A stretch of 64,000 nt of DNA from an uncultured Tolumonas sp. (lineage in GTDB: Bacteria > Pseudomonadota > Gammaproteobacteria > Enterobacterales > Aeromonadaceae), in NCBI RefSeq assembly GCF_963556105.2, contig NZ_OY829948.1:62001-126000 (forward strand). Direction: 5' to 3'. Positions within the stretch are counted from its first letter, which is position 1, and each line of letters begins with the position of its first letter. Positions 11,273-57,744 of the stretch are shown piece by piece. Position numbers and translations under genes: made by a program. The notes under the pieces are model-generated. The model was given only the letters and a program-made list of their open reading frames with translations, ran no database searches and had not been told where the DNA came from.

Positions 11273-13741
11273 ATGGTGAATCCTTTGGAGCAACAGCTGT
11301 TTGCACTGGACAAGGATGAGTTTAAGCAAGAGATCGTTCACCATCTTCGCACCACACTGGGCACCAGTGAAAAGAAAGCAAGCAAACAAGCATGGTGGAT
11401 GGCAACCTGCGCCACTATCAATCAGATGCTGTTCGACCGACTGACCAGCACACAACAGACTCACTTCAAGAAAGACACGCGTGCCGTGCACTACTTTTCA
11501 GCCGAATTCCTGATGGGACGACTGACCGCCAACAACCTGCATAATTTAGGGCTTTATCAAACCTGTGACGCCGCACTGAAAGAACTCGGTCTGGAATTGA
11601 CTGATCTGTGCGAAGAAGAACCGGATATGGCTCTTGGTAACGGCGGTTTGGGTCGTTTGGCTGCTTGTTTTATTGATTCACTGGCAACGCTGGGTTATCC
11701 GGCTCTGGGTTATGGCCTGCATTATGAGCATGGCTTGTTCCGTCAGGAGATCCGCGATGGCCGTCAGGTTGAGCGTCCTGATTCATGGCGTGAATATGGC
11801 AACCCGTGGGAAATTTGCCGTCCGGAATCGGTACAGGAAATTCCACTCTACGGTTATGTCGAAACCGTGTTTGGCGAAGATTGCAAAGTCCGTAAAGTGT
11901 GGCACCCCGGTCGCGTAATCAAAGGTGTACCTTGGGATATTCCGATCGTTGGCTTTGGTGCTCAGACCGTCAACATTCTGCGTTTGTGGGAATCTCGCGC
12001 TTCTGAATTCTTTGATTGGGATGTGTTTAACCACGGTGGTTATATCGACTCTCAGAAAGAAAAAGCCGAAGCAGAAACTATTTCCAAAGTGCTTTATCCG
12101 AATGATGAAACAGAAGCGGGTAAAGAGCTGAGTCTGGTGCAGCAATATTTCTTCTGCGCCTGTTCCTTGAAAGACATTATGCGTCGTTACAAACGCACGC
12201 ATACCGACTTCAAAGACTTTGCTGCGCAAATTGCGGTACAACTGAACGATACGCATCCAACTATCGCGATCCCAGAGCTGATGCGTGAATTGATCGATGA
12301 TGAAGGTCTGGAATGGCTCGATGCGTGGAATATTTGTAAGCAAGTATTCTCTTACACTAACCATACCTTGTTGCCAGAAGCCCTTGAAACCTGGCCGGTT
12401 TACCTGTTTGAAAAAGTACTGCCTCGCCATCTTGAGATCATTTATGAAATCAATGCTTACTTCCTGAAAAATGAAGTCGACGTGAAATGGCCGGGTGACA
12501 ATGATGTGAAACGTAAACTTTCTATCATTGACGAAGGCAACCCACGTCGTGTGCGTATGGCAAATCTGTGTGTTGTGACTTCACACAAAGTAAATGGCGT
12601 GGCGGAAATTCATTCCAAGCTGGTGAAAGAAGATCTGTTCCCAGAATTTAATGCCCTCTGGCCGGATAAATTCTGCAACGTCACTAACGGCGTCACCCCT
12701 CGTCGCTGGTTGCTTTCTTGTAATCAGGAACTGGCTAATCTGTTTACCGAAACCGTTGGTACGAAGTGGCCATTAAATCTGGATGTGTTGCAACAACTGA
12801 CCAAACATGCGGATGATGCGGCATTCCAGAAGAAATTCATGGATATCAAACGCCACAACAAAGAAAAACTGGTTAAAGTCATTAAGGCAGAAACCGGTAT
12901 TGAAGTGAGTGCCGATGCTATTTTTGATATTCAAATCAAACGTCTGCATGAGTACAAACGTCAGCAATTAAACCTGCTGCACATTTTAGTGCTCTACCGT
13001 CGTCTGCTGCTGAACCCGGAATATGACATGCACCCACGTGTATTTATCTTCGGTTCAAAAGCAGCGCCGGGCTATCGGGTGGCCAAAGACATCATTTACG
13101 CCATCAATAAAATTGGTGAGCGCATTAATGCTGATCAGCGGATCAACGGCAAACTGAAAGTCGTGTTTATGCCAAACTATCGCGTCAGTCTGGCAGAAAA
13201 ACTGATCCCGGCAGCCGATGTTTCTGAACAGATCTCAACCGCCGGTTATGAAGCGTCGGGGACTGGTAACATGAAACTGGCGATGAACGGCGCTATCACG
13301 ATTGGTACGTTGGATGGTGCTAACATCGAGATCGCAGAAGAGGTAGGCGATGATAATTGCGTCATCTTCGGTATGAATGTTGAAGAAGTAAAGAACCTAA
13401 AAGCGCATGGTTATAACCCTTGGGATTATTACTATGCAAATCCGGAAATCAAATCGGCTCTCGACTGGTTAGATACAGATTACTTCACGCCAGGACGTCC
13501 GGGTGAACTGCAATCGATCAAAAAATCACTGCTCGATTGGGGCGACACTTATCTGGCACTCGCCGATTTTGCTTCTTACGATGCAGCACATAAACGTATA
13601 GATGCACTGTATCGTGATAAAGCAGGCTGGGCCAAAATGGCGATCATTAATGCTGCATCAGTGGGCAAATTTAACTCAGATCGCTCGATCCAGGATTATG
13701 TCCGCCAGATATGGCATCTGAAACCATGTAACATCGCTTGA
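11273..13741 (+). CDS. glgP: Glycogen/alpha-glucan phosphorylase
   Basis: PLP enzyme that removes glucose 1-phosphate from the non-reducing ends of glycogen or maltodextrin. The PLP-binding lysine lies near residue 668 in [14 protein letters not shown], followed by [14 protein letters not shown], both diagnostic for the family. With 822 residues it is close to E. coli GlgP and MalP. Upstream AGAGG fits the ATG. It stands alone on the plus strand, divergent from yoaA, with glgX some 8 kb downstream but no glgBCA nearby. GlgP and MalP cannot be separated with certainty by eye. Confidence 0.93.
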
Positions 13742-13779
13742 TTGCACCATAATCGTAATCAAACCTCATAATTGCCTAA

Positions 13780-13807
13780 GCCATCGCCCTCTGCGGTGGC
13801 TTTTTTT
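13780..13807 (+). terminator. Rho-independent terminator of glgP
   Basis: Stem gccatcgc (13780-13787) pairs with gcggtggc (13793-13800) allowing one G-U, with a five-base loop and seven Ts directly after. Confidence 0.9.
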
Positions 13808-13918
13808 ATCTTTTCCTATCAAAAATCAGCAGATTATTTGACCTGTTTTCCTCTTCGTTACGTAAATAGCTATTAGTCGTTAAATGTTTGTTTATTTTTT
13901 GACATTCAGTAGCCGGAG

Positions 13919-13934
13919 TGGCACAACAATAGCT
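13919..13934 (+). promoter_or_regulatory. Candidate sigma-54 promoter for yeaG-yeaH-ycgB, within the 13808-14111 gap
   Basis: TGGCAC at 13919-13924 (-24 element) is followed after five bases by TTAGCT-like sequence with GC at 13932-13933 (-12 element). The GG-to-GC spacing is exactly that of sigma-54 promoters, with one mismatch in the -12 TTGC (TAGC). In E. coli yeaGH is known to respond to nitrogen starvation through NtrC and sigma-54, which supports the call. The start site would be near 13945, leaving a leader of about 165 bases. The rest of the 304-base gap is AT-rich and shows no other clear feature; no NtrC site was identified. Confidence 0.5.
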
Positions 13935-14111
13935 ACAGAATATTCGGAATGTGTTTTTTTGTACCAGATGGCACTGCTTAATGGTCGGCAACTACAGGAT
14001 TTATGAAGACTTTCTGACACCATTGGCAAAATGTCGTCTAGGCTTACAAATGAAACAGATGCATGTAGCCCCATCACGAATGGGACTCATCTCAGTATTG
14101 GGGGAGAAGCT

Positions 14112-16037
14112 ATGGGTATTTTTGATCATTATCAGCGCCGTTACGAAGCAGCCAGAGAAGAAGAATACACACTTCAGGAATTTCTGGAGTTGTGCCGTAA
14201 TGACCGTTCTTGCTATGTCTCCGCTGCAGAGCGCCTGTTGCTGGCTATTGGTGAACCAGAAATGGTCGATACGGCACTGGAACCACGCCTCAGCCGGATT
14301 TTTTCTAACCGCATATTGTCACGTTATCCTGCGTTCAAAGATGACTTCTACGGTATGGAAGAAGCCATCGAACAGATCGTGGCCTACCTGAAACATTCAG
14401 CCCAAGGCTTGGAAGAGAAGAAACAGATCCTGTATCTGTTAGGCCCAGTCGGGGGCGGTAAATCATCACTGGCTGAAAAATTAAAATCATTGATGCAAAA
14501 AATACCGATTTATCGCATCAAGGGTTCTCCGGTGAACGATCACCCATTTTGCCTGTTTGACGTCAATGAAGATGGCAAAATTCTCGAACAGGAATATGGC
14601 ATTCCTAAACGCTACCTGAAAAATATCATGTCGCCTTGGGTGGCTAAACGTCTGCATGAATTTGGTGGTGATATCAGCAAATTCAAAGTGGAAAAAGTTT
14701 ACCCATCCATTTTGGATCAGATTGCAATTGCCAAAACTGAACCGGGCGATGAAAACAATCAGGATATTTCCGCGCTGGTCGGTAAAGTCGATATTCGTAA
14801 ACTTGAGCATTATGCCCAGAACGATGCCGATGCTTACGCTTATTCCGGCTCATTATGCCTTGCCAATCAAGGCTTAATGGAATTCGTGGAAATGTTCAAA
14901 GCGCCCATCAAAGTGCTGCATCCGTTACTGACGGCCACTCAAGAAGGCAACTATAACGGCACAGAAGGGCTTTCCGCCCTGCCCTTTGATGGCATTATTT
15001 TGGCGCATTCTAACGAATCAGAATGGCAGCAATTCCGTAACAACAAAAACAATGAAGCCTTCCTTGACCGTGTCTATATCGTCAAAGTGCCTTATTGCTT
15101 GCGCGTCTCTGAAGAGATGCATATTTACGAAAAATTGCTGATGCACAGCGAACTGGTACAAGCCAAATGCGCACCAGGCACACTGGAATATCTGGCACAG
15201 TTCAGCATTCTGTCGCGTCTGAAAGAACCAGAAAACTCCAGCATTTACTCGAAGATGCGGGTGTATAACGGCGAAAGCCTGAAAGACACCGATCCGAAGG
15301 CCAAGTCTTATCAGGAATACCGCGACTATGCTGGTATTGATGAAGGCATGTCCGGCTTGTCGACTCGTTTTGCCTTTAAGATCTTGTCGCGGGTATTTAA
15401 CTTCGACCACACCGAAGTAGCGGCGAACCCGGTGCACTTGTTCTACGTGCTGGAACAACAGATCGAACGTGAGCAATTCCCGCAAGAATTGCACGATCGT
15501 TATCTGGAATTCATTAAAGGCTTCCTGGTTCCGCGTTATGTGGAATTTATCGGTAAAGAAATACAGACCGCCTATCTGGAGTCTTACTCTGAATACGGTC
15601 AGAACATTTTCGATCGCTACGTCACGTATGCTGATTTCTGGATTCAGGATCAGGAATATCGTGACCCTGAAACCGGCCAGCTGTTTGACCGTAGTTCATT
15701 AAACAGCGAGCTGGAAAAAATCGAGAAACCAGCCGGTATCAGCAATCCAAAAGATTTCCGTAACGAGATTGTGAACTTCGTGCTGCGTGCACGCGCGAAC
15801 AATGCCGGTCGGAATCCGAATTGGACCAGCTATGAAAAACTACGTGCTGTGATCGAGAAGAAAATGTTCTCTAACACCGAAGACTTGTTGCCGGTGATCT
15901 CGTTCAACACCAAAACATCGGCTGATGAGATGAAGAAACATGAAAACTTCGTCGAACGAATGATGGAAAAAGGTTACACCCGCAAGCAAGTTCGCCTGCT
16001 CTCCGAGTGGTATCTGCGTGTACGCAAATCCACTTAG
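14112..16037 (+). CDS. yeaG: PrkA-type serine protein kinase YeaG
   Basis: AAA-like kinase of the PrkA family, 641 residues from the ATG at 14112 ([18 protein letters not shown]), which has GGGGGAGAAG upstream and aligns with the E. coli YeaG start. An open frame from 14031 adds 27 residues outside the family. The Walker A motif GPVGGGKSS is near residue 111, and a C-terminal PrkA kinase domain follows. It is the first gene of a conserved trio with yeaH and ycgB. In enterobacteria this kinase acts in nitrogen-starvation and stationary-phase adaptation; its substrates are not evident here. Confidence 0.95.
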
Positions 16038-41929: not shown

Positions 41930-42046
41930 ACCGACCTGTAATGTTCCTACAACTTACATTCTCGCACATTTATTGCAGGTCACTTTTTTCATATCAATTT
42001 CCGTTTTCTGTTATTTGCTATTTATAACTAACTCATGGAGCTGAAG

Positions 42047-43486
42047 ATGTTAAGAAGAACTAAAATCGTGACCACACTCGGTCCGGCAACTGATCGCGAA
42101 GGCGTTCTGGAAGGGATTTTGGAAGCCGGTGCCAACATGGTACGCATGAACTTTTCTCACGGCACAGCGGAAGATCATATTGCCCGCGCGAAGCATATTC
42201 GTGAACTGGCGGCTCGTTTAGGTAAATCCATTGCAATTCTGGGCGACCTGCAAGGCCCTAAAATTCGTGTGTCTACATTCAAAGACAACAAGATTATGTT
42301 GAAAGTGGGTGACAAATTCCTGCTGGATGCCGAGCTGGGTAAAGGTGAAGGTACACAGGAACAAGTCGGTATCGACTACAAGAAACTGCCGGAAGATGTG
42401 ATCAGCGGTGATATTCTGTTACTGGATGATGGCCGTGTGCAGTTGAAAGTAGACAGCGTTGATGGCAGCAAAATTTTCACTACCGTGACTGTGGGTGGCC
42501 CACTGTCTAACAACAAAGGGATCAACAAAAAAGGCGGCGGTCTGTCTGCCCCTGCGTTGACTGAAAAAGACAAAGCTGACATCAAAACTGCCGCATTGAT
42601 GCAAGTTGACTATCTGGCTGTTTCTTTCCCACGTAACGGTGCGGATCTGAACTATGCACGTGAACTGGCCCGTGAAGCAGGTTGTAACGCTAAGATCGTG
42701 GCTAAAGTTGAACGTGCAGAAACAGTTGCTACTGACGAAGCGATGGAAGACATCATTCTGGCTTCTGACGTGGTGATGGTTGCTCGTGGTGACTTGGGTG
42801 TGGAAATCGGCGACTCTGAGCTGATGGGTGTGCAGAAAAAACTGATCCGCAGTGCCCGTAAGCTGAATCGTGTTGTTATTACAGCAACCCAGATGATGGA
42901 ATCGATGATCAAAGCACCGATGCCAACACGTGCCGAAGTCATGGACGTTGCCAACGCAGTATTAGATGGTACTGACGCCGTCATGCTGTCAGCTGAAACT
43001 GCTGCAGGCGATTTCCCAATTGAAACTGTAACGGCAATGGCTAACGTATGTCTGGGTGCAGAAAAACACCCAAGCGTTAACGTGTCTAATCACCGTATGA
43101 CTTATACATTCAGTTCGGTTGAAGAAACTATCGCAATGAGCACCATGTATGCAGCTAACCACATGCAGGGTGTTAAAGGTATTGTCGCGATGACCGAATC
43201 AGGCACCACCCCACTGCTGATGTCACGCTTAAGCTCTGGTCTGCCAATTTTTGCTCTGTCTCGTCATCAACAAACATTGAACTGGTGTTCTCTGTATCGT
43301 GGCGTAACGCCAGTTTATTTCGATGCGGATGAATCACAACCAGTGATCCAGAATTGCCGTGACGCAATTTCCGAGCTGAAAAGCCGCGGTTATCTGAAAG
43401 CTGGCGATCTGATCTTGATCACTTACGGCGACAAAATTGAAAGTATTGGCGGTACAAATACTTGTAAGATGATGATTGTAGAATAA
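42047..43486 (+). CDS. pykA: Pyruvate kinase (PykA type)
   Basis: Converts phosphoenolpyruvate and ADP to pyruvate and ATP. The 479-residue protein aligns with E. coli PykA rather than Pyk[39 protein letters not shown] and the catalytic-lysine region [10 protein letters not shown] are all visible. The ATG at 42047 is preferred because GGAG lies six bases upstream; an ATG 12 bases earlier overlaps that site. Same strand as hexR, 192 bases downstream, which matches the hexR-pykA neighbourhood of E. coli in gene content. Confidence 0.95.
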
Positions 43487-43503
43487 TTTCTACAATGCGG
43501 AAC

Positions 43504-43530
43504 AACGCCGGCACTTGCCGGCGTTTTTTT
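43504..43530 (+). terminator. Rho-independent terminator of pykA
   Basis: Nine-base stem aacgccggc/gccggcgtt with a four-base loop, followed by seven Ts. The T-run overlaps the end of the convergent HD-GYP gene by two bases. Confidence 0.93.
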
Positions 43531-44785
43531 ATACCGTTTGAATAATTCGCTGATAAGTTACACTCGCCTTCTGTTGAGCAAGAAACCTGACTTCATCAAT
43601 TTCAATGAGATGTTGGCATAACAATCGATAAACTGTATCAGTGTCTTTTGGTTTTAACATTCCCACTAGCGCCTCCATCGCCTCACTCAGTGGCATTGAT
43701 TTACGATAAGGGCGATCTTCTCTCAGCGCAGTAAATACATCGGCATAAGTTATGATCCGCGCTTCTTCTGAAAGTGAGCGACCATCTAAGCCAAATGGAT
43801 AACCGGAACCGTCTGTTTTTTCATGATGATTACTGGCCCAGGCACAAATATCAGCCAGTACATTTAATTCACTCAAGATTGAATTAGTATAAAAAGCATG
43901 TGCTTTCATGCGGTTAAATTCTTTTGCCGTTAATTTATCCGGTTTGTTTAGAATTTCGCTCGGCACCGCGATTTTGCCAATATCATGTAAATAACCCGCA
44001 ACCCGTAATTTACGGCTTTTTTCCTCTGAAAATGGTTTTAGTTTTGCTAATTCATAAGCAACCGCAGCCACCCCTGCAGAGTGTGTAGAGGTAAATTGAC
44101 TTCGGAAATCGATCACATGAGAAAAGGTAAGAGCTAAAGACTCCAATACATTAATATCGACATGAATAGGTGGTTCATAGGCCAAAGTACGGTGCAATAA
44201 TGTTTCCATTGCACAACCGTCTAGCCGTAGCCAAAAAGCATCATGTAATGATGCCCGCAGAAATGCCTCAACCAATTCTGGTTTAAACACTAAACCAGAT
44301 AAAGCCTGGGTAACGTCTCTAATTCTTTCGGTCTGATCTAAAATCCAAACATTAGGATCAATAGAAATATCAATGCGATCTGCCAGATGTAATAGGAAAC
44401 TTTCTTCTGGAACAATGTCATCGCCAACCAAAACACCGTCGCCGTTGTGCCAATAATGATGATGAAAACGGATCACGGGAACGATATCGGCAAAATAGGC
44501 GAAATCACACAACATGCCAGCCCCTAATGCGGCATGAGGATGATCTTCTTCGACATCCATTTGCAACAATTCTGCTTTTTCAGAAGAAGAAACGGCACCG
44601 ATATCATGTAACACTGCGGCTAATATCAATCGGCGTTTCTGTTCCGCATTCCATCCTGCTTCATCGGCAATCGCTTCAGCTAATATTGCTACTCGGAGAT
44701 GATGTTGATGGACAAACGAACTGACCATATCAATCGAATGTGCCAGTGAAATGATAATGTCTTGAAGCTTAAGTTCTGGGTGCAT
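43529..44785 (-). CDS. Tandem-HD protein with HD-GYP c-di-GMP phosphodiesterase domain
   Basis: 418 residues. The C-terminal domain (about 225-400) is a canonical HD-GYP: HDIGK in YLHDIGKIAVP and HHEKTDGSGYPFGLDG, the GYP signature, which predicts hydrolysis of c-di-GMP. The N-terminal domain (about 20-140) is a second, diverged HD fold with LHDIGA and FHHHYWHNGDGV but no GYP, likely regulatory. No signal peptide or membrane helix is seen. GAGAGGG precedes the ATG. It is the last gene of the signalling locus, about 210 bases after the GGEEF cyclase gene, and may have its own promoter. Confidence 0.92.
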   Translation of the reverse strand: MHPELKLQDIIISLAHSIDMVSSFVHQHHLRVAILAEAIADEAGWNAEQKRRLILAAVLHDIGAVSSSEKAELLQMDVEEDHPHAALGAGMLCDFAYFADIVPVIRFHHHYWHNGDGVLVGDDIVPEESFLLHLADRIDISIDPNVWILDQTERIRDVTQALSGLVFKPELVEAFLRASLHDAFWLRLDGCAMETLLHRTLAYEPPIHVDINVLESLALTFSHVIDFRSQFTSTHSAGVAAVAYELAKLKPFSEEKSRKLRVAGYLHDIGKIAVPSEILNKPDKLTAKEFNRMKAHAFYTNSILSELNVLADICAWASNHHEKTDGSGYPFGLDGRSLSEEARIITYADVFTALREDRPYRKSMPLSEAMEALVGMLKPKDTDTVYRLLCQHLIEIDEVRFLAQQKASVTYQRIIQTV

Positions 44786-44995
44786 GGCAACCCTCTCTTA
44801 TTGTCGGACGTCAATCAAACTCAAGAACTAGCGGTAGCTATTGAAACTATAGTAATCCAAAGCAAAGTCCATTCAATATTTGTGGTTTATTTTATGCTCA
44901 TGAGGCGGTTAAAAAAGCGAATGGTCAAAACGGATATGCAGAAAAGCGGATGATTAAAGTGAAGTTCAATTCATTTCATTAAACGTGTGACTGCT

Positions 44996-46291
44996 TTACG
45001 CGATACAAACCCTATTGCGTCCAGCGTGTTTAGCGCAGTACAGCGCTTCATCCGCCTGACTAAGCAGAGCGTAGAGATTGTAATCAGAGGAAGTTGGCGT
45101 ACTGATGCCTATTGATATGGTAAATCGCATAATTACTTCGCCGTTATGCAGTGGGATCTCGGCCATTTCGACGGAACTTCTAAGACGTTCGGCAACTACC
45201 GCCGCACATTCCTGGCCTGTTTCTGGCAGAAAAATAGCAAACTCTTCCCCACCAATACGCCCTTCAATATCAGCAACACGTAGCGTTTTTTGAAAGATAT
45301 CGGCCAGCGTAATCAACACCTGATCGCCAGATTTATGGCCATAGGTGTCGTTTATAATTTTGAAGTTATCGATATCGATCATTAAGATCGAGAAGTTATG
45401 GCCATAACGTGAAGCTTTTTTTATTTCTCGTTCAGCCAACTCCATGAAATAACCACGATTATTTAATCCGGTCAGATAATCTTGCCGGGCCTGTAATTCC
45501 AGTTTTGTCAGTAACGCTTTGCGTTCCGTCATATCGCGGCTGATTTCCATGATCGCAACAGGCCGATCATTTTCATCCCGTTTTACGGCCCAGCGGCTGG
45601 CAACGACAATGCGGGCACCATTTTTGGTGACATGTTCTAATTCGCCTTCCCATTGCCCAGTGCGAAATAAAATATCTTCGATTTCTGCCAGCGGTTGTGG
45701 AAACTGGGTCTCTAGCAGTTGATGCATATCTTGGTCTCGAACATCCTCCTGTGACCAACCATAAGTGCGCTCCGCACCCTGATTCCAAAAGGTCACAAAA
45801 TGATTCATATCGCGAACAATAATGGCGTCATGAGCCAAATCGAGTAATTCCGCTTGTTCAATGACCTGTCTTTCTGCTTTTTTTCGTTCAGTAATATCAG
45901 TATGCGTACCTGACATCATGAGTGGTGAACCATCCTCAGCCCAGCTAACCACCTTGCCATGCGTAAGAACGTATTTCCATTCACCTGATTTGGTTCGGAT
46001 TCGCAACTCGACCTGATGACAGGGAATTTTTCCGGCTAAATGCAAATTGATCGACTCTATCGCTTTTGCCAAGTCATCGGGATGAACATGTGTAGCCCAG
46101 TTATCAATGGTGAAATCACCTTCACCGGGTTCATAGCATAACATTGTCTCAAAACGGTCACTGACGATGAACTGCCGACTAGGTAGCTTCCAGTCCCAGA
46201 AGCCTTGCTCAGACCCTTCTAAAACACGTTTAAGGCGTGCTTCACTTTCTTGCAACGTTAATGGTTCTTCGCCCATTTTTTTATTTTTCAT
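44996..46291 (-). CDS. PAS-PAS-GGDEF diguanylate cyclase (GGEEF)
   Basis: 431 residues: two PAS domains with PAC tails (about 16-140 and 145-258, each ending in DxTERK), then a GGDEF domain. The active-site motif is GGEEF at 347-351, a functional variant, and the inhibitory I-site RxxD is present at 338-341 (RVAD). This predicts an active, product-inhibited cyclase that makes c-di-GMP. No membrane segment is seen, so sensing is cytoplasmic. Its ATG overlaps the stop of the upstream PAS-GGDEF-EAL gene by four bases, so the two are translationally coupled. Confidence 0.93.
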   Translation of the reverse strand: MKNKKMGEEPLTLQESEARLKRVLEGSEQGFWDWKLPSRQFIVSDRFETMLCYEPGEGDFTIDNWATHVHPDDLAKAIESINLHLAGKIPCHQVELRIRTKSGEWKYVLTHGKVVSWAEDGSPLMMSGTHTDITERKKAERQVIEQAELLDLAHDAIIVRDMNHFVTFWNQGAERTYGWSQEDVRDQDMHQLLETQFPQPLAEIEDILFRTGQWEGELEHVTKNGARIVVASRWAVKRDENDRPVAIMEISRDMTERKALLTKLELQARQDYLTGLNNRGYFMELAEREIKKASRYGHNFSILMIDIDNFKIINDTYGHKSGDQVLITLADIFQKTLRVADIEGRIGGEEFAIFLPETGQECAAVVAERLRSSVEMAEIPLHNGEVIMRFTISIGISTPTSSDYNLYALLSQADEALYCAKHAGRNRVCIA

Positions 46292-48411
46292 ATCACTAAC
46301 TCGGTGGTTATCACTTGGGCGATTAATTGTTCTTGTAACTGTTCGATCGGCAATGGGCGACCGAACAAATATCCTTGATAAGCGTGGCAGCCTAAACTCG
46401 CCAGCAACACGCGTTGTATTTCAGTTTCCACGCCTTCCGCAATCACCGATAACCCCATCGTCTGACTGAGATCGATAATCGTCTGGGCTATTGCAGCGCT
46501 ATTCGGGTCATCCAATAGATCCCGAACGAACGAGCGATCAATTTTTAGCTGATCTAAGGGTAGCCGGCGCAAATAAGCGAGCGATGAATAACCCGTACCA
46601 AAATCATCAAGCGAAAAACCAACGCCATGCGCTTTGAGTGCTGACATTTTGGCAATGACTTCATCCACTTTCTCGACTAACAGACTTTCGGTCAACTCCA
46701 GTTTCAATTGTTGCGCGTTAGCACCCGTTTTATGCAAAATTTCCAGCACTTGTTCAACAAAATCAGCGCAGTTGAACTGAACAGGGCTGACATTCACCGA
46801 TAATGTCAGTGCTGCACTTTCAGGTTTTAATGCCCAATCTGCCAGTTGAGAACAGGCGGTTTCCAACACCCAGAACCCCAGAGGTTTGATCAAACCCGAT
46901 TCTTCTGCCACAGGAATAAATTCGACTGGTGAAACAAGCCCAACGCCAGGGCGCTCCCATCTGACTAACGCTTCAGCACCGGTAATGTGCCCTTCATGAT
47001 TAACCTGAGGTTGGTAATACAACCGGAACTGCTGCTCACGTAATGCCTCTTGCAAACCATTTAACAATTCAGCACGTAATGTGACGGCTTTTTGCATTTC
47101 CAGATCAAAAAATCGCAGCGAATTCCGACCTGATGACTTTGCTTCATACATCGCTAAATCGGCTTGTTTCAGTAATTCATCAACATTAGCCTGCCGGGAA
47201 AATAATGTAATGCCGATACTCACGCTGCCCAGATATTTATGATTATCAATTTGATAAATCTGATTCAACGCCTCCAATATTTTCCGGCCTGCCGCTTCGG
47301 CTTGGGTGGCTGCTTCCGGCTGACTCTGAGAAAGATCTTCCAGCATCACCAGAAATTCATCCCCGCCTAAGCGCGCGACGGTATCATTTTTTCGGATACA
47401 GGCAGTTAAGCGCTCCGCCACCTGTTGCAACAGTCGGTCACCGATATCATGGCCTAACGTGTCATTGAGCGTTTTGAAATTATCTAAATCAATAAACAGT
47501 AAAGCGCCCACGCTTTGATTGCGGGCACTAGCAGCAATGGCTTGCTGTAATCGATCGAGTAATAAGCGACGATTGGGTAATCGGGTCAGCGGGTCATAGA
47601 ACGCCAGATGCATGATCTGTGCTTCGGCATCTTTACGCTGCGTGATATCAATTTGGGAACAGACGTAGTGGGTAATTTCTCCTTTTTCATCCCGTACTGC
47701 AGTTATAGTGATCCAATTAGCATAGACCTCACCACTCTTTCGTCTATTCCATATCTCACCTTGCCAAAAGCCGCTATCCAGTAAACTCTGCCACATCGCT
47801 TCATAATACGCAGCCGGATGATAATCAGAACGAATGAGCCTTGGTGTCTGCCCTACGGCTTCTTCCGCTGAGTACCCCGTCGTCAACGTGAATGCCTGAT
47901 TAACGCGCAGAATGACGCCCTGCGCATCGGTAATAAACATACCTTGCTGGGATTCAAAAGCTGCAGCTGCAATACGTAATTCCGCTTCAGCACGAACAAG
48001 GCTGCTCATATCCGCATCCATACAAAACAGTACGGGCGGATGATTGGGGATTGCAATAACAGTGTGACTGGAATGCACATGAACGGCATGCCCATTCTTG
48101 TGTCTCAATTCTAAGCGACCAGCGGGAATACCCTGCCCTGATTCAAACATCCAGCTCACAGCGCCTTCAACTTCCTGTCGAATATCTGCCGGAATGATGA
48201 GATCTAACAGATTGCCGCCCAGCGCTTCTTCAGCGGTATAACCGTAAATTTTTTCTGATGCTTGGTTCCAGTAAACCACCGTGCCGTTTGGCAAATATCC
48301 TTGAATGGACATGGCATCGGCTTCGTCGAATAGCTTTTTGAAACGAGCTTCGCTGACTTCTCTGGAATGTTTTTCATCCCGAAATGCAGAATAAGGTGTT
48401 ATTTCCGCCAT
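46288..48411 (-). CDS. PAS-PAS-GGDEF-EAL dual-domain c-di-GMP enzyme
   Basis: 707 residues: PAS (about 20-140), PAS/PAC (about 145-265), GGDEF (about 270-430) and EAL (about 440-695). The cyclase motif is intact, GGDEF at 349-353 with RxxD (RKND) at 340-343. The phosphodiesterase motifs are intact too: EALVRW (480-482 for EAL), [25 protein letters not shown] and AEGVE. The net direction cannot be told from sequence. The ATG at 48411 has AGAG upstream; a GTG six bases earlier is also possible. It lies 187 bases after the REC remnant and overlaps the GGEEF cyclase gene by four bases. Confidence 0.93.
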   Translation of the reverse strand: MAEITPYSAFRDEKHSREVSEARFKKLFDEADAMSIQGYLPNGTVVYWNQASEKIYGYTAEEALGGNLLDLIIPADIRQEVEGAVSWMFESGQGIPAGRLELRHKNGHAVHVHSSHTVIAIPNHPPVLFCMDADMSSLVRAEAELRIAAAAFESQQGMFITDAQGVILRVNQAFTLTTGYSAEEAVGQTPRLIRSDYHPAAYYEAMWQSLLDSGFWQGEIWNRRKSGEVYANWITITAVRDEKGEITHYVCSQIDITQRKDAEAQIMHLAFYDPLTRLPNRRLLLDRLQQAIAASARNQSVGALLFIDLDNFKTLNDTLGHDIGDRLLQQVAERLTACIRKNDTVARLGGDEFLVMLEDLSQSQPEAATQAEAAGRKILEALNQIYQIDNHKYLGSVSIGITLFSRQANVDELLKQADLAMYEAKSSGRNSLRFFDLEMQKAVTLRAELLNGLQEALREQQFRLYYQPQVNHEGHITGAEALVRWERPGVGLVSPVEFIPVAEESGLIKPLGFWVLETACSQLADWALKPESAALTLSVNVSPVQFNCADFVEQVLEILHKTGANAQQLKLELTESLLVEKVDEVIAKMSALKAHGVGFSLDDFGTGYSSLAYLRRLPLDQLKIDRSFVRDLLDDPNSAAIAQTIIDLSQTMGLSVIAEGVETEIQRVLLASLGCHAYQGYLFGRPLPIEQLQEQLIAQVITTELVI

Positions 48412-48598
48412 ATACACTCTGCCATGTTTGTTTTAATCGATAGAAAACCTAGTCCGATAACAACAGACATGATCTATTTATATATTAGGAATGTGATTTT
48501 TTCCTCTCTACTTGAGCGCGGTGTGAGCAACTTACTGAAGTAATTGTATTGTGACGGTATTCAGCAATCACAGCGGCTTTTTCTGCCTGAAATGCTAG

Positions 48599-49033
48599 TC
48601 AACTTGTTGATCCAAGCGTTGTTGTGCTTGTTGCCACATATGCGTTTAAAACTGAATATTGCAATATTTTCGACTGTAAGACCTCGTAATAACGAAAGGC
48701 TTCGCGAATAACCTCTTTTAATTCCGTATCATCCCAAGGTTTTGTCAGAAAACGGTATATTTCGCTACGATTGATAGATTCTGCGATGCTATCAACATTA
48801 CTGTAACCACTGAGAACAATCCGAACCACACTAGGGTGGATAACGCGCGCACGAGCTAGGAATTCAATACCCGTCATTCCAGGCATTCGTTGATCGCAAA
48901 TAATCACACCGACCTGATTGTCAGCCAATAGCTGCAATGCTGTTTCCCCATTTGCAGCGGTCAATATACGATAGTTTTCTCGGCGTAATGAACGCATCAA
49001 TGCGGATAACACATTCGGTCCATCATTAACGAA
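48599..49033 (-). pseudogene. REC-domain remnant, in frame behind the EAL gene's stop codon
   Basis: From a GTG at 49012 the frame encodes 137 residues that cover most of a response-regulator receiver: phosphoacceptor aspartate in IICDQRMPGMTG, the T/S position in LSGYS, and lysine in LTKPWDD. The first strand is missing. Reading upstream in the same frame gives FVNDGPN before a TAA, where a normal receiver would read LFVDDEPN, so the acidic pair is damaged and the TAA sits where Leu is expected. No ribosome-binding site precedes the GTG. The C-terminal tail (after YSVLNAYV) looks unlike coding sequence, while another frame there reads HMWQQAQQRLDQQVD and stops, which suggests a second frameshift. 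Confidence 0.7.
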
Positions 49034-51982
49034 TTACACCGTGCAGGAGCCCTCATCATTTATTGGGATCGCTAGTGGTTCATAACTGTTCAAAAACGCC
49101 TCAATTTCATTAACTGGCAAGGGTTTACTAACCAAATAGCCTTGCATAAAATCACATTGCAGGAAGCGCAGATATTTTGCCTGAGCCAATTCCTCTACCC
49201 CTTCCGCAATTATTTCCAGACCTAGGCTATGACCCAACGCAATAACTGCTTGAACGATCGAGGCATCACCACTGTTCACCAATATTTTTCGCACAAACGA
49301 GATATCAATCTTGAGCTTATGCACAGCCAGTTGTTGAAGGTAAGCCAGTGAAGAATAACCTGTTCCAAAATCATCAATTGACAGGCAAACGCCTAATGCC
49401 TTCAACTCACTAAGCGATTTGATAGCGCTCGTCAGATTAGACATGACAGAGCTTTCCGTGATTTCTAGTTCCAAACTTTCGGGTTGAATGCCAGTTTCAA
49501 TAATGATTTTTTTAACCATGGTGGCAAAATCGCCTCGGCCTAATTGAACGGCAGAAACATTAACGGCGATGAACCCAAGAGTTGGTCGGGATAGCGACCA
49601 TGTTTTAATTTGATAACAAGCTGTTTTCAACACCCATTCACCGAGCGGAACAATCAGCCCGCATTCTTCGGCTAAGGGAATAAAGCTAGATGGCGGGATC
49701 ATACCCCGACTAGGGTGCTGCCAGCGGACTAACGCTTCGAACCCAACAATCTGGCCATTAACCAGATCGATTTGTGGCTGATAAAACAACCGCAGTTCAT
49801 TTTCTTTTATTGCTCGTCTTAAATCCGCTTCCAGCGTCAATCGAGCCTTAGCTAGACTGGTCATTTCAGGTGAAAAAAACCGCAGCAGACCACGGCCTTG
49901 TGATTTAGCTTGATGAAGAGCAGCATCGCCATGGGATTGCAAACTTTCTGCATCCAAGCCATCTTCCGGGTACAGCGCAATGCCTATATTCACTCCGCTA
50001 TAAACCTGATGACCATCTACATTGAACGGTTCATTAAATGCGTCAATGATCTGTTGGGCCACCAAATCAGGACCAAGAACATGTTCATTTTGTTCAAGAA
50101 TGATATTAAATACATCGCCACCCACGCGAGCAATGGCATTCACATTTGGTAACAGCTCTCTTAGTCGATGAGCTACTTCAATCAATAACTTATCGCCTAG
50201 ACTCGGCCCCAAGCTTTCGTTGATCATTTTAAAATTAACGAGATCGAAAAATAACAGCGCAAACCGGGTACGGTTTTGCTCGTTTTGCTGAATGGCATGA
50301 AATAATAGTTCATGAAAAAGTACACGATTGGGTAATTCGGTTAACGGATCGCGATGAACGAGAAAATCGAGTTTTTGCTCTGTTCGTTTGATCTGACTCA
50401 GATCTGAAAAAACAGCAATATGGTGTGTGCGTATACCCTGTGCATTGCGGATCACACTGATATTAAACAGCGCAGGGAAAATCGAACCATTTTTATGCCG
50501 GTTCCAGATTTCACCTTGCCATGCACCAGTTGTATCGATAGCTCGCCACATTGTCTGATAAAAATCACGTTCATGCCGACCAGATCTCAGCAAACCAGGG
50601 TTACACCCTATAACTTCTTGCGCACTAAATCCGGTAATTTCGGTAAAGGCATGGTTGACACTCAGGATATGATTTTGCGTATCTGTGATAACGACCCCTT
50701 CCGTCGTGTTTTCAAGCACCGCAGCCGCTAAATGGAGGTTTTCTTCCGCTCGGCGTCGCTCAGTGATATCACGATGAGTACCTCGACATCCGGTATGGTT
50801 CCCCATCGCATCGTAAACAAACAGACATACATGCTCAATCCAGCGTTCAGCACCATCCTGTCGGCGGATGCGAAAAATCAAAGGTGTTTGTTTATTCTTA
50901 TCCGCACAATTTGTTGGGCCACACCTATGCCAAGCAGGAAGATCTTCCGGATAAATAATTTTATCCATCAAATGGGCATCAGCAAAAAAATCTGCCGGGG
51001 TATAGCCGGAAATATCGGCACAGGCGGGTGAAACATAAAGATAACTGCCATCCTGTGCTAACCAGTATTCCCAGTTAGGCGAATAGTCAGCAAGAGTGCG
51101 GTATTTTTCCTCACTTTTCTCCAGCAAGGCGGTACGTTGCGCCACCAGCTGTTCAAGAAAACCTCTTAATCGACTAAGTTCAAGATGGGTGCGAATTCGA
51201 GCCCGGACCTCCTCAATTTCAAACGGTTTGGTGATGTAATCAGCGGCGCCAACGTCGAACCCGTGCACCTTGTCTTCTGAGGAATCAACGACCGTAATGA
51301 AAATGATCGGGATCCGATTGCCCGCTGGCGTCATTTTGATCTGACGACAAACTTCCACACCATCTATATCCGGCATCATGATGTCGAGCAAAATAAGGTC
51401 TGGCGGCATAGCGCCTTGTGCCAGTTCAATCGCTTTACGTCCATTATTAGCGACCATGATCCTATAGTCATCTTTCAGAACTTCTAACAGCGCATGGATA
51501 TTTTCGGGAACATCATCGACGACTAAGAGTGTCGGAACTTCACCAGGCGGAAGACGTCTCATTGCATCCAACAATATAGGCGTTTTGCGATACCTTTTTA
51601 GCTCCAGTTGATTTTGCACACGTAGACGCAATAATTCAGCATTAACCGGCTTGGTAATGTAATCAGCAACACCCAGTTTAAGTCCTCTTTCTTCATCAAT
51701 GGCTTCAGATAGTGCTGTGACAAAAATAACCGGAATATCGGCGGTAGCTGGTTCAGCTTTAAGTCTGGCAAGAACAGAATAACCATCCATGCCGGGCATC
51801 TTTATATCCAGTAAGATCAGTTCCGGTTGTGGCTGGCGTTGTGCTATTTCCAGTGCTTTTTCCCCACTGGTGGCAGCAGAAATAACATAGTCATCTCGCA
51901 GAATATTCATTAATGCATGCAGATTTTCATTAACATCATCCACAATGAGGATCCTGGGGCGTTTATTCGAGTGCTCATTCAT
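49034..51982 (-). CDS. REC-REC-PAS-PAS-GGDEF(degenerate)-EAL response regulator
   Basis: 982 residues. Two receiver domains carry phosphoacceptors D59 (LLDIKMPG) and D200 (LLDIMMPD). Two PAS domains follow (about 290-410 and 415-535). The GGDEF domain has GGDVF at 621-625, a disrupted metal-site region ([12 protein letters not shown]) and no RxxD I-site, so it should not make c-di-GMP. The EAL domain is complete ([33 protein letters not shown]), so the protein is probably a phosphorylation-controlled phosphodiesterase. The ATG at 51982 overlaps the kinase gene's end by eight bases; a GTG at 51991 is possible. The C-terminus may be truncated (see the REC remnant). Confidence 0.92.
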
Positions 51983-54900
51983 ATTTATCACCGCTGTTGT
52001 TTAGCACATCACCCATGTCTTCTGGCTGCAATCGACTACGCAATGTCGTTAACAAGGCCAATGCTTCATCGATCGCAAAAATATCGGTCTTGGCGACAAT
52101 ATCATCAACCAATGATTCAACTTCATAACCAAATAAACTGGTTTGCAGTTCAGTTAATAATGGCTCTGCGGCACCTAAATCATATTCCAGTGCATAGGCT
52201 AATTTATCTAACCGTCTCAGAATCTCATCTCGGCTGAGATTGTTGGTATTTTGAACGGGTATCACTGCTGTCGGTTTAGCTAAACTATCAATGTCCTTCA
52301 TGACTTGCCGTAGCTGTTGTTGCATGACTTTCAGTTGTGAAGGCTCAGGCTGCTGACCTTGTTTGAGTTGGGCATCGATTCGACTTACCGAGTCAAAAAG
52401 ACGTACAGCGCCAATATTGCCAGAAACACCTTTAAGCGCATGGCAATAATCCTCCGCCTTCTGCGTTCCATCAGCAATAAGCTCCTGCAACCGGATATCA
52501 GCATCGGCATAATGTTCCCGAAACCGACTGAGTTGTTTGCGATAGGCCTCTTCTTTACCACCAATGCGACGGATACCCTGCAAGACATCAAGACTCGTTA
52601 CCTGTTGTAAATCATGAGAGTATTTTTGTATAGGATGAGTGACTGAGTTCAAAACGGCTTCAGTTCCGGACGATGAGGCGCTATGCACCCATTTGGCCAA
52701 GGATGACATCAGACGATCTGGATCCATCGGTTTGGTTATATGATCGTTCATACCAGCTGCCAGACTTTTTTCCACATCTTGTGCCATCGCCAATGCGGTC
52801 ATCGCGATAATGGGTAATGAAGCAAAACGCTCACCATTAGGCATTTTAGCCAAAGCCCGGATGTGTTGAGCAGCCTCTAAGCCATCCATGACCGGCATCT
52901 GGATATCCATCAATACACCATCATAGTTCTGGCGTTGAACTTTATATACCGCCTCTTCCCCGTTGAGTGCTTCATCAACCACGATCCCTTGGCTACGTAG
53001 TAATTCAGCTGCAAATTCACGGTTAATATCATTATCCTCAACCAGCAATAAACGAATGCCTGCCAAATTATTACTCATTAATGTGTCTGCTCTTTGCGGT
53101 AGAGGATCTTGGGCTCCCAAAATTCGCCCCCGCCCGAGAACAGACAGAATGGTGTCAAGCAACGTAGACGGTGAAACAGGCTTAATGAGAAAACCATCAA
53201 CACCGGCTTGCTCTGCCAGCCGAATAACATCCTCACGGCCATACGCAGTCACCATGACAATTTTAGGCTGGTGAACTATCTCGCTATGAATACGTTGTGC
53301 CGCTTCATCCCCGTTCATACCGGGCATTTTCCAATCCATTAACACGATATCAAACGGTTTTTCATTCTCAGTCTGCAACACCGCTAATGCGGCAGATCCG
53401 TTATGCGCCACACTAACAATCACACCGAAATAGCTCAGCATACCGGCCAATATGTCCCGCGACATTTCATTGTCATCAACCACTAATACCCGAATGCCGT
53501 TGAGTAATGGGCCTGCTTGTTCCAGTAGTGCATGACGACGCGACTTTACTTGTTGTGCAATTTTAAGTTGAGCGGTAAAACAGATCGTGGTTCCTTTCTG
53601 CAATTGTGAATTTTCGATCCATATTGTCCCGCCCATCAACTCAACCAGATTTTTGCAAATAGCCAAACCTAACCCGGTACCGCCATAGTGACGGGTTGTT
53701 GATTGATCTGCCTGAGTAAATTTCTGGAATAATTTATTTTGTTGTTCAGGCAACATCCCAATGCCCGTATCCCGAACATTGACCTGAATATTTAACTCGG
53801 TATCGGTGATAGAAAGCGCATGAAAAGCCAGCTCTACCTCCCCTTGCTCAGTAAATTTCACCGCATTGCCACATAAATTCAGCAACACCTGACCAAGGCG
53901 GAGTGGATCACCCAGTAAAATCGACGGAATAGCTGTATCGTAGCGAATAAGAAACTCAATCCCCTTATGTTCGGCCTGGTAACTGATTGCATCAGTCAGT
54001 TGCTCCAATACACTATCAAGGCTGAATTCAATACATTCCAATTCAAGCTTACCTGCCTCGATTTTAGAAAAATCGAGAATATCGTTGATAATACCGAGCA
54101 AAGAATGTGCAGCACCTTGTGCTTTTGAAAGGTAGTTATGCAAGCTGGACGGTAAATCGCTCTTCAGGGCAAGATATAGCATGCCCAAAATAGCATTCAT
54201 CGGCGTACGGATTTCATGACTCATATTCGCTAAAAATTGACTTTTTGCGAGATTGGCATGCTCAGCCGAGTCTTTAGCAAGCAGAAGCTCTTGTGTTCGT
54301 TCGGCGACAATTTGCTCAAGATTTAGATTTACCGCATTGAGTTTTTGTATCGACTCAAAAAGTTGTGACTGACTATCATTCAGCACATCAACGAGTGCCC
54401 CCAGTTCATCCTGATATGGATATTCAATCTTTTCGACTCGTATGTCTCTGGGCTTATATTGCCAACCCGCAACGGTTTTAGCCATCTGAGTTACGCTATC
54501 AGATAATCGAAAACGAATTGCCCAGGAAAAAATAAGCCATAGACAGGTGGTGACGATAACGGAACTTAATAGCATCACCGAAAGACTGTATTTGATGCGA
54601 TCCCACAAGACACTCCGGCTGGAGTACAAATCCAAATAACCAATCAAATCTCGAGAACCATTCGATGATTGGTGGAAAAGTGACACTACTTGTTGCCGAT
54701 ATGGACCGGATAATATATTTGTTGATTGTTTTTGTTGTGCGGGAATGTCGCCATCACTGACGAGAATATCGCCCTTATCATTCTGGATAAGTACACCCGT
54801 GACGATCTCGTTTTGTCTCACACCTTTTGCCGATAAAGAGAGTCGTCCTGAATCTAACTCCCATACTGCTTCAGTTATGCCCGGCTCGACGGTACGACCT

Positions 54901-55049
54901 AATGATGCCAAATCGCTACCGATAGCATGATCAACCGTGAAATATTGGATAACAAGCTGTACTCCGGTCACACTGATAGCAAGCAGTAGATACCATGGGA
55001 GCATGGTGTAAAGTAGCCGCCGTGACAGTGTTTGCGTTGAACTCGTCAT
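51975..55049 (-). CDS. Hybrid sensor histidine kinase (HisKA-HATPase-REC-REC-HPt)
   Basis: 1024-residue membrane kinase. Helices at about 14-35 and 155-178 flank a periplasmic sensor region. A HAMP-like linker and coiled coil (to about 262) lead to the dimerisation domain with phosphorylated H278 ([11 protein letters not shown]). The ATPase has [15 protein letters not shown] and GTGLGLAI. Two receivers follow with D572 (LMDWKMPG) and D715 (LMDIQMPV), then an HPt domain with H870 ([13 protein letters not shown]). All phosphorelay residues are present, as in BarA/TorS-like kinases. GGAG precedes the ATG. It overlaps the REC-REC-GGDEF-EAL gene, whose receivers are the natural output, and follows the binding-protein gene by 43 bases. 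Confidence 0.94.
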
Positions 55050-55092
55050 TGTTTCTCCATTTCAAAACATCCCTAATTATGAATGACGAAGA

Positions 55093-55986
55093 TCAGTATT
55101 TGGATTTAGGCCACCACCAACTCGTATCCGGTTTTGCATTACCCGCAGGTAAGATAGTGTTATCCAGCAGGATCACTTTACGCTTCTCTTTTTTTAACGC
55201 TGTGATCTCTGCGGCATGATAACTTTCGAATAATTTACGGAAAGATCCATCAGCTAATGAACGATTTAGCCCAAGTTCTATTCTTTTAGCGAGTGCCACA
55301 TTGTTTTTGTTCACCCAAAAATAAACTGGGTAAGGGAAATAAAGTGCTTTAGATTTCTCAATTGCCAATTGGGGATAATTTTGTTTACGCTCATCTAATT
55401 CTCGTCGCGCCTCATTAAGACCCCGCGGAAATGCATCAAACCGGTTGGCAGCCAACATCACAAATAAATTTTCATAATCAGAAGAGGTAACAACTGAAAA
55501 TCCGTTTGCTCTCATAATGGGAAGGTCTGCCCACTGACTATTAAGACCAAACATCAGTTGTTTCCGCAGGGATATATCATCCATCTGTGTAATACGTTCT
55601 TGATCAGCGGCTCGAATAACTAACAATCTGAAACCGACAATACCCCGTAAAATATCTATCTTTATGGGTAATAACTGTGCCTCGCGTTCTGCGTTCGTCC
55701 CTAATGCGATGACATCAATATCCCCTGCTTCCAACAAAGAGATCCCTCGGTTTTGTGTCACATTCTCGGTGAAAGGCACAAGCTGAAGCGGTTTCGCCAT
55801 ATCGTTGGTATGAGCCAATGCTAATTCCAAAAGTTTCCATCTATATTCGTAGATGGTTCCAGAAGGAAAGTAACGAATTACAGCTTCTGAGGAAAATACG
55901 GGGCTGACACAACCAAAAGCCACACTGACAGCGACGATCAGTTTACTGATCCTATGGAAGTATTTATGGCATTCAGAGAATTTCAT
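55093..55986 (-). CDS. Periplasmic solute-binding-like protein, candidate sensor partner of the kinase
   Basis: 297 residues from the ATG at 55986 (AGGA nine bases upstream). An N-terminal signal peptide ends near VSPVFSSEA (about residue 33). The mature protein has the layout of a type 2 periplasmic binding protein (SBP_bac_3 group), for example LLEAGDIDVIALGTNAERE and NLFVMLAANRFDAFPRG. No ABC permease or ATPase is nearby. It lies directly upstream of the hybrid kinase on the same strand, so it probably binds a ligand and presents it to the kinase's periplasmic domain, as in other binding-protein/kinase pairs. The ligand is unknown. Confidence 0.8.
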   Translation of the reverse strand: MKFSECHKYFHRISKLIVAVSVAFGCVSPVFSSEAVIRYFPSGTIYEYRWKLLELALAHTNDMAKPLQLVPFTENVTQNRGISLLEAGDIDVIALGTNAEREAQLLPIKIDILRGIVGFRLLVIRAADQERITQMDDISLRKQLMFGLNSQWADLPIMRANGFSVVTSSDYENLFVMLAANRFDAFPRGLNEARRELDERKQNYPQLAIEKSKALYFPYPVYFWVNKNNVALAKRIELGLNRSLADGSFRKLFESYHAAEITALKKEKRKVILLDNTILPAGNAKPDTSWWWPKSKY

Positions 55987-56406
55987 CACGACTGTTCCTT
56001 ATTGCTAAGTTAAGTATTTATATCAAATGCATGAGCATGGATAGCCGTTCTAGTTAAAAGCCATTCATATTTGAATTATAGTTATAGTGATCAACTAATA
56101 CCGGACAGAAATTAGGTTGATTTTCTGCTTTGGCAAGTGATGGATAACCTGTCGCGAGAACCCACCCTGTTTTCAGACTTCGAAACAACCTGTGCATTGG
56201 CGCTTTATGCCAAGAATTTCCGCGATGATTCATACTTTACGTTATGCGGTATCGCCATAAGTGTTGTCTAACTTGACGATTGCTGTATTGAACTCCTAAT
56301 AAAACCGCACCCATTTTTTACTTTCTGACAACAATTAAGTGATGTATTCCATTGCCTAAAAAGCTATCATGCGCCGGTTTTCTCAACAGCAGAAATTGAG
56401 CATTAA
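55987..56406. other. 420-base intergenic region between the signalling locus and rimO
   Basis: Divergent promoter region with no clear RNA gene. A 43-codon frame runs on the plus strand from ATG 56140 to TAA 56271 (starts MDNLSREPTLFSDFE), but it has no ribosome-binding site and matches nothing I recognise. It may be a gene fragment or chance. No strong promoter was identified for either flanking gene. Confidence 0.4.
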
Positions 56407-57744
56407 TTGAACGATATGAATCAAAAAGCACTGGCACCTAAAGTCGGTTTTATCTCTCTTGGTTGCCCAAAAAATCTGGTCGATGCCGAACGCATTCTGA
56501 CCCAGTTACGCACTGAAGGTTATGACGTGGTGAATAACTACGACAATGCCGAATTAGTGATTGTGAACACCTGTGGTTTCATCGACAGCGCTGTGCAAGA
56601 GTCATTGGAAGTGATTGGCGAAGCGTTGCAGGAAAACGGCAAGGTGATCGTCACCGGTTGTCTGGGCGCAAAAGAAGATCAGATCCGTGAAGTGCACCCC
56701 AAAGTACTGGAAATTTCCGGCCCGCACGCTTATGAACAAGTATTAAGTCACGTTCATAAATATGCAGCTAAACCTGAACACAACCCGTTCCTGAGCTTAG
56801 TGCCAGAACAAGGTGTTAAGCTGACACCGAAACATTACGCCTATCTGAAAATCTCTGAAGGCTGTAATCACCGCTGTACATTCTGCATCATTCCATCAAT
56901 GCGTGGCGATCTCGACAGCCGAGCGATTGGCGAAGTGCTGGGTGAAGCGAAACGTCTGAAAAATGCCGGCGTGAAAGAAATTCTGGTGATCTCTCAAGAT
57001 ACCTCAGCCTACGGTGCTGATTTGAAACACCGCACTGGCTTTTACGAAGGCTCACCAGTGAAAACCAGCATGCTGGGTCTGTGTGAAGAATTATCAAAAA
57101 TGGGCATGTGGGTACGTCTACATTATGTTTACCCTTATCCGCATGTGGATGATGTGATCCCGTTGATGGCGGAAGGTAAGATCTTGCCGTATCTGGATAT
57201 CCCGCTACAGCATGCCAGCCCACGCATCCTGAAACTGATGAAACGTCCGGGTGCAATTGAACGCACATTAGAGCGTATTCAGGAATGGCGCCGCATCTGC
57301 CCAGATCTGACACTGCGTTCAACCTTCATTGTCGGCTTCCCGGGTGAAACCGAAGAAGACTTCCAGATGCTGCTCGATTTCTTAGAAAAAGCTGAGTTAG
57401 ATCGTGTCGGTTGTTTCAAATACAGCCCAGTCGATGGCGCAAAAGCTAACGAATTGCCCGATCCAGTACCGGAAGAGATTCAGGAAGAACGCTTCCATCG
57501 CTTCATGGAATTACAGCAGAAAATTTCTGCACGCCGATTGGCTGCCAAAGTGGGCCGTCAATTGGATGTGATCGTCGACGAAGTGGATGAAGAAGGCGCT
57601 ATTGGTCGCAGCTTCGCGGATGCACCGGAAATTGATGGTGTAGTTTACTTAAACGGTGAAACCAGCCTGAAACCAGGTGATATCGTGAAAGTGACCATCG
57701 ACAATTCAGATGAATATGATTTATGGGGAACGGTAGTTCGATAA
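56407..57744 (+). CDS. rimO: Ribosomal protein S12 methylthiotransferase RimO
   Basis: Radical SAM enzyme that adds a methylthio group to Asp88 of ribosomal protein S12. It shows the three expected parts: an N-terminal UPF0004 domain ([27 protein letters not shown]), the radical SAM CxxxCxxC in [14 protein letters not shown], and a C-terminal TRAM domain ending [10 protein letters not shown]. Sequence tracks E. coli RimO throughout. The start is TTG at 56407 (GAG six bases upstream) or ATG at 56416, which has a poorly placed site. Both give near-normal length (445 or 442). Confidence 0.96.

Follow-up and report, generated by a model that had tools for sequence, protein, structure and literature searches.

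A Tolumonas cyclic di-GMP gene cluster read as two neighbouring units: a probable ligand-sensing phosphorelay operon beside a resident group of the pyk-rimO interval

The window studied here is a stretch of 64,000 nucleotides from an uncultured Tolumonas sp. (contig NZ_OY829948.1), and our subject is the group of signalling genes that lies in it between pyk and rimO, four of which encode proteins of cyclic di-GMP (c-di-GMP) turnover. The original prediction, made from this sequence alone, took the whole group for one compact locus in which a ligand signal could pass from a periplasmic binding protein and a hybrid kinase to c-di-GMP breakdown, with two PAS cyclases providing synthesis and the HD-GYP protein ending it. 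We compared the locus with its relatives, and consider it probable that two units, independent of each other, adjoin in this stretch. Unit A would be a conserved operon for a ligand-sensing phosphorelay (the binding protein, the hybrid kinase and a REC-REC-PAS-PAS-GGDVF-EAL response regulator, hereafter the trio, REC being the receiver domain). Unit B (a PAS-GGDEF-EAL, a PAS-GGEEF and an HD-GYP protein) would reside in the pyk-rimO interval and have an upstream region of its own. The features, in window coordinates, are as follows.

42035..43486, plus strand: pyruvate kinase gene (pyk), flank, from NCBIfam
43529..44785, minus strand: protein with two HD domains, the second an HD-GYP (Pfam HD/HD_5, motifs); unit B
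44996..46291, minus strand: PAS-PAS-GGEEF protein with I-site, likely a diguanylate cyclase (Pfam, motifs); unit B
46288..48417, minus strand: PAS-PAS-GGDEF-EAL protein (Pfam); unit B
48599..49012, minus strand: third receiver (C-terminal REC), detached from the EAL gene that follows in this list and lying in the same frame, beyond a single in-frame stop
49034..51991, minus strand: REC-REC-PAS-PAS-GGDVF-EAL response regulator, likely a c-di-GMP phosphodiesterase with an inactive GGDEF domain (Pfam, motifs, alignment); unit A
51975..55049, minus strand: hybrid histidine kinase, N-terminal sensor region followed by HisKA-HATPase-REC-REC-HPt (Pfam, motifs; HPt, histidine phosphotransfer domain); unit A
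55093..55989, minus strand: periplasmic binding protein of 298 residues (sub-threshold SBP_bac_3 match, relatives); unit A
48551..56292, no strand: trio-bearing stretch, missing from this site in two relatives (G021 and G033), where its flanks lie about 5 bp apart
56407..57744, plus strand: rimO, flank, from NCBIfam

The domain content proposed originally was mostly confirmed by Pfam and motif checks, and the six minus-strand open reading frames (ORFs) and both overlaps are present as described. The "remnant" counted beside these six is no gene, and the "four or five turnover proteins" come to four, the fifth item being the detached receiver domain. In unit B the two GGDEF domains are intact (GGEEF in one, GGDEF in the other) and both have an RxxD I-site, the EAL motifs of the PAS-PAS-GGDEF-EAL protein are complete, and the HD protein carries both HD-GYP motifs (HDIGK at 267 and HHEKTDGSGYP at 320).

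The genus comparison covered 11 Tolumonas genomes including this one, a small set in which several of the relatives are fragmentary drafts, and loci were read from nine of the ten others (all except G030). All 11 gave a match to pyk, although that of G030 is no more than a paralogue at 37%; rimO was matched in 10, the exception being G033, where a contig end falls at the start of the gene. Both G021 and G033 have the order pyk, HD-GYP, PAS-GGEEF, PAS-GGDEF-EAL, rimO, and the positions equivalent to 48550 and 56293 of the window are there about 5 bp apart. Beside pyk/rimO in G003, G021 and G033, the PAS-PAS-GGDEF-EAL protein is 95-97% identical to that of the window and the PAS-GGEEF gene has the same neighbours. 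Unit B as a whole is 93-97% identical in G003, with about 6.2 kb of intervening genes before rimO. In G018 both PAS genes are kept, on two contigs, the PAS-GGEEF gene directly adjoining pyk and a GAF-PAS-GGDEF gene standing before rimO. The HD-GYP gene is the most widely kept neighbour of pyk, which it adjoins in G003, G021, G033, G024, G007 and G027; it had no match at 1e-60 in G011, G015, G030 and G018. G003, G021 and G033 retain the 133 bp in front of the PAS-GGDEF-EAL gene, and G024 retains them to within 5 bp; its short contig shows 1.3 kb of other sequence upstream and no match to the trio.

The trio does not lie beside the PAS-GGDEF-EAL gene in any of the five relatives that have this gene (G003, G021, G033, G018 and, as far as its 1.3 kb of readable sequence goes, G024). 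It is located elsewhere. G021 and G033 each carry it on a different contig, behind a shared set of upstream neighbours, and G007 has it next to purC. No relative shows the seven-gene order; the genes are scattered, only this one of the 10 genus genomes whose loci were read has the seven-gene combination, and the single compact locus of the original prediction falls apart into a trio and a unit B that occur separately in G021, G033, G003 and G007. Nor do the relatives support placing the HD-GYP gene and the two PAS cyclase-type genes in the same circuit as the kinase: in G003, G021 and G033 these three form a group at pyk that lacks the trio, and the HD-GYP gene stands there without the unit B PAS genes in G007 and in G027 (in the latter in two pieces, L129 2331-3574). 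The two-unit reading is built on gene content, gene order, motifs and position in relatives; from these we infer that the units would be transcribed separately. The case illustrates how a compact signalling locus read from a single genome can be an accident of neighbourhood, a matter that comparison settles quickly.

Several observations weigh against this two-unit reading. All six genes and the detached receiver are on one strand, the gap between the detached receiver and unit B is only 181-186 bp, and it holds a single weak terminator-like site of 5 pairs (48468-48452). Our scan found no minus-strand sigma-70-like site in this gap or directly upstream of 55989; with no such site before either unit, read-through from one into the other is possible. 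The units may also talk to each other through a common pool of c-di-GMP. At the edge of the trio-bearing stretch, about 20 bp past the break are common to this genome and G003 and missing in G021 and G033, and the rimO side is common to this genome and G021/G033. The trio may thus have been gained here, or G021 and G033 could have undergone a deletion. The edges of 48551-56292 show no long terminal repeats, and the stretch contains no transposase ORF. The neighbourhood is nonetheless not conserved, whichever direction the change took.

The two units might also once have been separate and yet work together in this strain, unit B having come under read-through from unit A. The common orientation, the gap of less than 200 bp and the lone weak terminator-like site speak for such an arrangement; unit B, on the other hand, retains its own 133 bp upstream, and we think the arrangement unlikely. 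The scan itself, with 18 promoter-like sites in place of 26 expected by chance and 24 terminator-like sites in place of 13, backs neither separate nor joint transcription.

The output protein of the trio deserves closer description. Its GGDEF signature is GGDVF, without an I-site, and departs from the intact GG[DE]EF of a diguanylate cyclase; its EAL domain scores 246.7 bits in Pfam and has complete catalytic motifs. Across the five regulators aligned, namely the window protein and four relatives, the GGDEF signature is degenerate in every case (GGDVF, GGDIF, GGDIF, SGDKF, GGAEF) and the EAL motifs are invariant, so that breakdown of c-di-GMP, and not its synthesis, is the expected output.

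Judged by its frame and by the domain order of a relative, the "REC remnant" of the original prediction is the third, C-terminal receiver of this EAL protein. Positions 48599-49012 are in frame with the EAL gene, which has a stop at codon 986 (seen in a single assembly) and is then open to codon 1131; the counterpart in G007 (L120 9631-12984) is one ORF of 1117 residues with three REC domains, the third at the C terminus. The detached receiver shares 82 of 117 residues with that of G007, to be compared with 713 of 984 for the body of the protein, and has not obviously decayed, though its acidic pocket reads VND where that of G007 reads VDD. Other members of the genus have also lost this domain. 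In G021 and G033 (L119 12770-12803; L121 11316-11349) the EAL gene ends, barely into the third receiver, in a short tail of different sequence, and in G018 (L040 1-1150) the third receiver is replaced by yet another tail. These alignments indicate at least two lesions, and probably three separate ones. As a side observation, an antisense frame with a sub-threshold match to DUF6538 lies at the cut EAL end in G021 (L119 12618-12995) and in G033 (L121 11164-11664), where a HipA gene comes next; DUF6538-like domains are found at the start of some phage integrases.

One could argue from these losses, by differing lesions in this genome, G021, G033 and G018, that unit A is decaying: the stop would have removed the receiver normally phosphorylated by the HPt, and the relay would no longer reach the EAL domain. 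The binding-protein gene of G021, which is broken into pieces in several frames (L119 5848-6700), points the same way. We nevertheless hold such decay to be very unlikely, since the motifs checked in the two N-terminal receivers (VDD, LLDxxMP, TKP) are intact, a Telmatospirillum regulator described below does without a third receiver altogether, and the EAL protein, the kinase and the binding protein differ from those of G007 at 17-21% of nonsynonymous as against 76-81% of synonymous sites, which indicates constraint (synonymous sites are here near saturation, and no ratio of the two rates, dN/dS, is given).

There is finally the single circuit of seven genes, with the ligand sensor, a pair of cyclases, a pair of EAL proteins and the HD-GYP protein all acting together, which the common strand, short gaps and overlaps recommend, as does the fact that four c-di-GMP genes fall within 8 kb in only 3.6% of random placements, but which we regard as highly improbable given that its combination is private to this genome among those whose loci were read and its units live apart in the four relatives named above. 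The grouping had been called unusual, and for four genes within 8 kb this stands (5000 trials); three genes fall together in 53% of trials, however, and a second cluster, of five GGDEF genes on mixed strands, exists within about 13 kb of contig C1. The genome, of 4.0 Mb, gives 60 GGDEF, 29 EAL and 14 HD_5 matches (a few of them fragments), or about 77 genes after rough merging. The density of c-di-GMP genes at the locus is notable, and is explained by the meeting of two units.

Returning to unit A, the three-gene order is kept in G033, in G007 and in a metagenome-assembled genome (MAG) of Telmatospirillum (Alphaproteobacteria); G021 keeps it as well, with open kinase and EAL genes behind its broken binding-protein gene. 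The unit is rare. An orthologue of the kinase (at least 67% identity) occurs in 5 of 61 genomes of the family, all of them Tolumonas, the other matches listed reaching at most 47%. The binding protein is found in 4 of 11 genus genomes (including the broken copy of G021), the contig of G018 ending inside the kinase gene. At E 1e-60 or better it occurs in one of 369 genomes of the class, which is the present one, in 3 of 398 genomes of the phylum, this one included, and in 2 of 48 genomes in the class of G464. G270, whose match has an E of 5e-52, shows no kinase within 3.9 kb of sequence, and a scan of named genomes with the EAL protein met the binding protein at one of the best 80 loci, that of the Telmatospirillum MAG.

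The Telmatospirillum binding protein is 74% identical to ours, and the kinase 54% in the sensor part and 62% in the rest, where there is an extra PAS domain. The third gene is REC-REC-PAS-GGDEF-EAL, 67% identical over REC-REC-PAS, and its GGDEF is again degenerate. This locus has a G+C content of 0.60, close to the 0.61 of its contig and far from the 0.44 of Tolumonas, so that it is no Tolumonas contaminant. G464 and G490 belong to the same phylum and to another class, which is sampled by 48 genomes and is thus hardly Alphaproteobacteria. In these two the binding protein and the kinase are adjacent and 59-64% identical, and the third gene (L146 4693-7464; L147 about 11580-14360) encodes REC-REC-PAS-PAS followed by HisKA-HATPase-REC, the domains being assigned by Pfam in G464 and by alignment and translation in G490, where the start codon is not fixed. 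In all six loci with both ends read, the kinase gene runs 4-22 nt into the third gene. By these homologies the pair of binding protein and kinase occurs in three bacterial classes, and the third gene always begins with REC-REC-PAS.

This suggests a wider possibility, about which our opinion is evenly divided: unit A may be a portable cassette for sensing whose output can be exchanged. One periplasmic ligand would be wired to different effectors, namely a c-di-GMP phosphodiesterase in Tolumonas and in Telmatospirillum and, in another class, a second histidine kinase that carries a receiver; and the Tolumonas EAL protein would once have been closed by a third receiver that has since been lost repeatedly. 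A rare and tightly ordered unit here couples a kinase to a soluble binding protein of the periplasm, and has had its output end swapped. The trio could then be a natural test case for the exchange of outputs with ligand sensing kept, and a candidate route to a new ligand controlling c-di-GMP.

The binding protein resembles SBP_bac_3 and no more than that, its score of 20.8 bits being under the Pfam cut-off of 26.4. Its N-terminal stretch looks, by eye, like a signal peptide. Across the alignment it is 86, 71 and 69% identical to three relatives; the tail PDTxWWWP (window 55096-55131) is common to the binding proteins that travel with the kinase and is not kept in the four more distant relatives aligned. 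A profile search of the PDB returned five weak matches to binding proteins, the best with an E of 0.008 across 54 residues, too weak for a ligand to be named. The kinase holds the H, N, G, D and HPt-His motifs. Its HPt scores 21.9 bits in the whole protein, against a Pfam cut-off of 24.6, and 25.0 bits, barely over it, if the C-terminal part is scanned separately; the sensor region has no Pfam match. AlphaFold2 models of the binding protein (2 sequences) and of the periplasmic region of the kinase (3 sequences) reached a mean pLDDT of 34.5 and 53.1, respectively, and are unusable.

From the conserved order of the trio, the most likely course of the signal is from a ligand to the binding protein, the kinase, the HPt, a receiver and the EAL phosphodiesterase. 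The binding protein, loaded with a small molecule in the periplasm, would touch the periplasmic region of the kinase and alter its autophosphorylation; phosphate would then travel His-Asp-His(HPt) inside the kinase and onward to the receivers of the third protein, whose state would set the c-di-GMP phosphodiesterase activity of the EAL domain, the GGDEF partner presumably being no longer a cyclase. Ligand binding, phosphotransfer, hydrolysis and other enzyme activities are what we infer from the protein families. Of the ligand-to-c-di-GMP relay proposed originally, the path from binding protein through kinase to a c-di-GMP-degrading protein is supported by the conserved order, and the part assigned to unit B is not supported.

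Searches of the open-licence PubMed Central (PMC) literature listed nothing that describes the trio in its title or in the abstract shown. LuxP-LuxQ offers a separate periplasmic binding protein encoded beside the hybrid kinase that it controls; the signal there goes by way of a separate phosphotransfer protein to a transcription cascade. The binding-protein gene adjoins the hybrid kinase in the trio as well, but the trio kinase scores 338 bits where the LuxQ model has a cut-off of 1200. The closest described system that we found is VieSAB of Vibrio cholerae, a putative operon whose sensor kinase, with periplasmic ligand-binding domains and a histidine kinase-REC-HPt arrangement, phosphorylates a REC-EAL regulator that has a c-di-GMP phosphodiesterase domain and a helix-turn-helix (HTH), the third protein, VieB, inhibiting the kinase (PMC4352251). 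The trio likewise has a hybrid kinase ending in an HPt (with its score at the edge of the cut-off) beside a REC-EAL regulator, but its ligand-binding part is a separate gene and not a region of the kinase, its kinase has two receivers and not one, its regulator (REC-REC-PAS-PAS-GGDVF-EAL) has no HTH among its Pfam matches, and no counterpart of VieB was seen at the trio. In NspS-MbaA the binding protein NspS contacts the GGDEF-EAL protein MbaA directly and raises its cyclase activity (PMC11575326), and there is a Sinorhizobium homologue (PMC9993111); here too a periplasmic binding protein governs c-di-GMP turnover, but with no phosphorelay between binding protein and enzyme. RmcA, which has L-arginine as the ligand of a fused SBP_bac_3 domain (PMC8846402), also ties a domain of this type to c-di-GMP signalling, but by fusion to the enzyme and with no kinase.

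A mobile element at 48551-56292 was considered and rejected; besides the lack of terminal repeats and of a transposase ORF already mentioned, there is no tRNA gene in the window. The 7-base TGTATTG, noticed by eye at both edges, is too short to count. The binding protein had no match in the phage collection; its plasmid matches were below 60% identity in all 30 records, and no hybrid kinase lay beside the match in the three plasmid records opened (H3 and H9, with incomplete annotation, and H4, which has none and was searched by tblastn). In relatives, where the trio lies elsewhere, there are hints of mobility. In G021, from about 1.6 kb past its cut end, there are an IS21-type pair (IstB and transposase) and genes for TniB and a Mu-type transposase (L119 14363-19617). 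In G007 a tRNA-Arg gene (L120 5430-5506) is found just upstream of the binding-protein gene of the trio; tRNA genes are a common kind of integration site. The pyk-rimO interval itself, 12.9 kb here (43487-56406), measures 5.2 kb in G021, 10.3 in G027, 11.4 in G003, 32.8 in G015, 39.5 in G011 and 48.0 kb in G007, and looks as if it were a site of frequent gene turnover.

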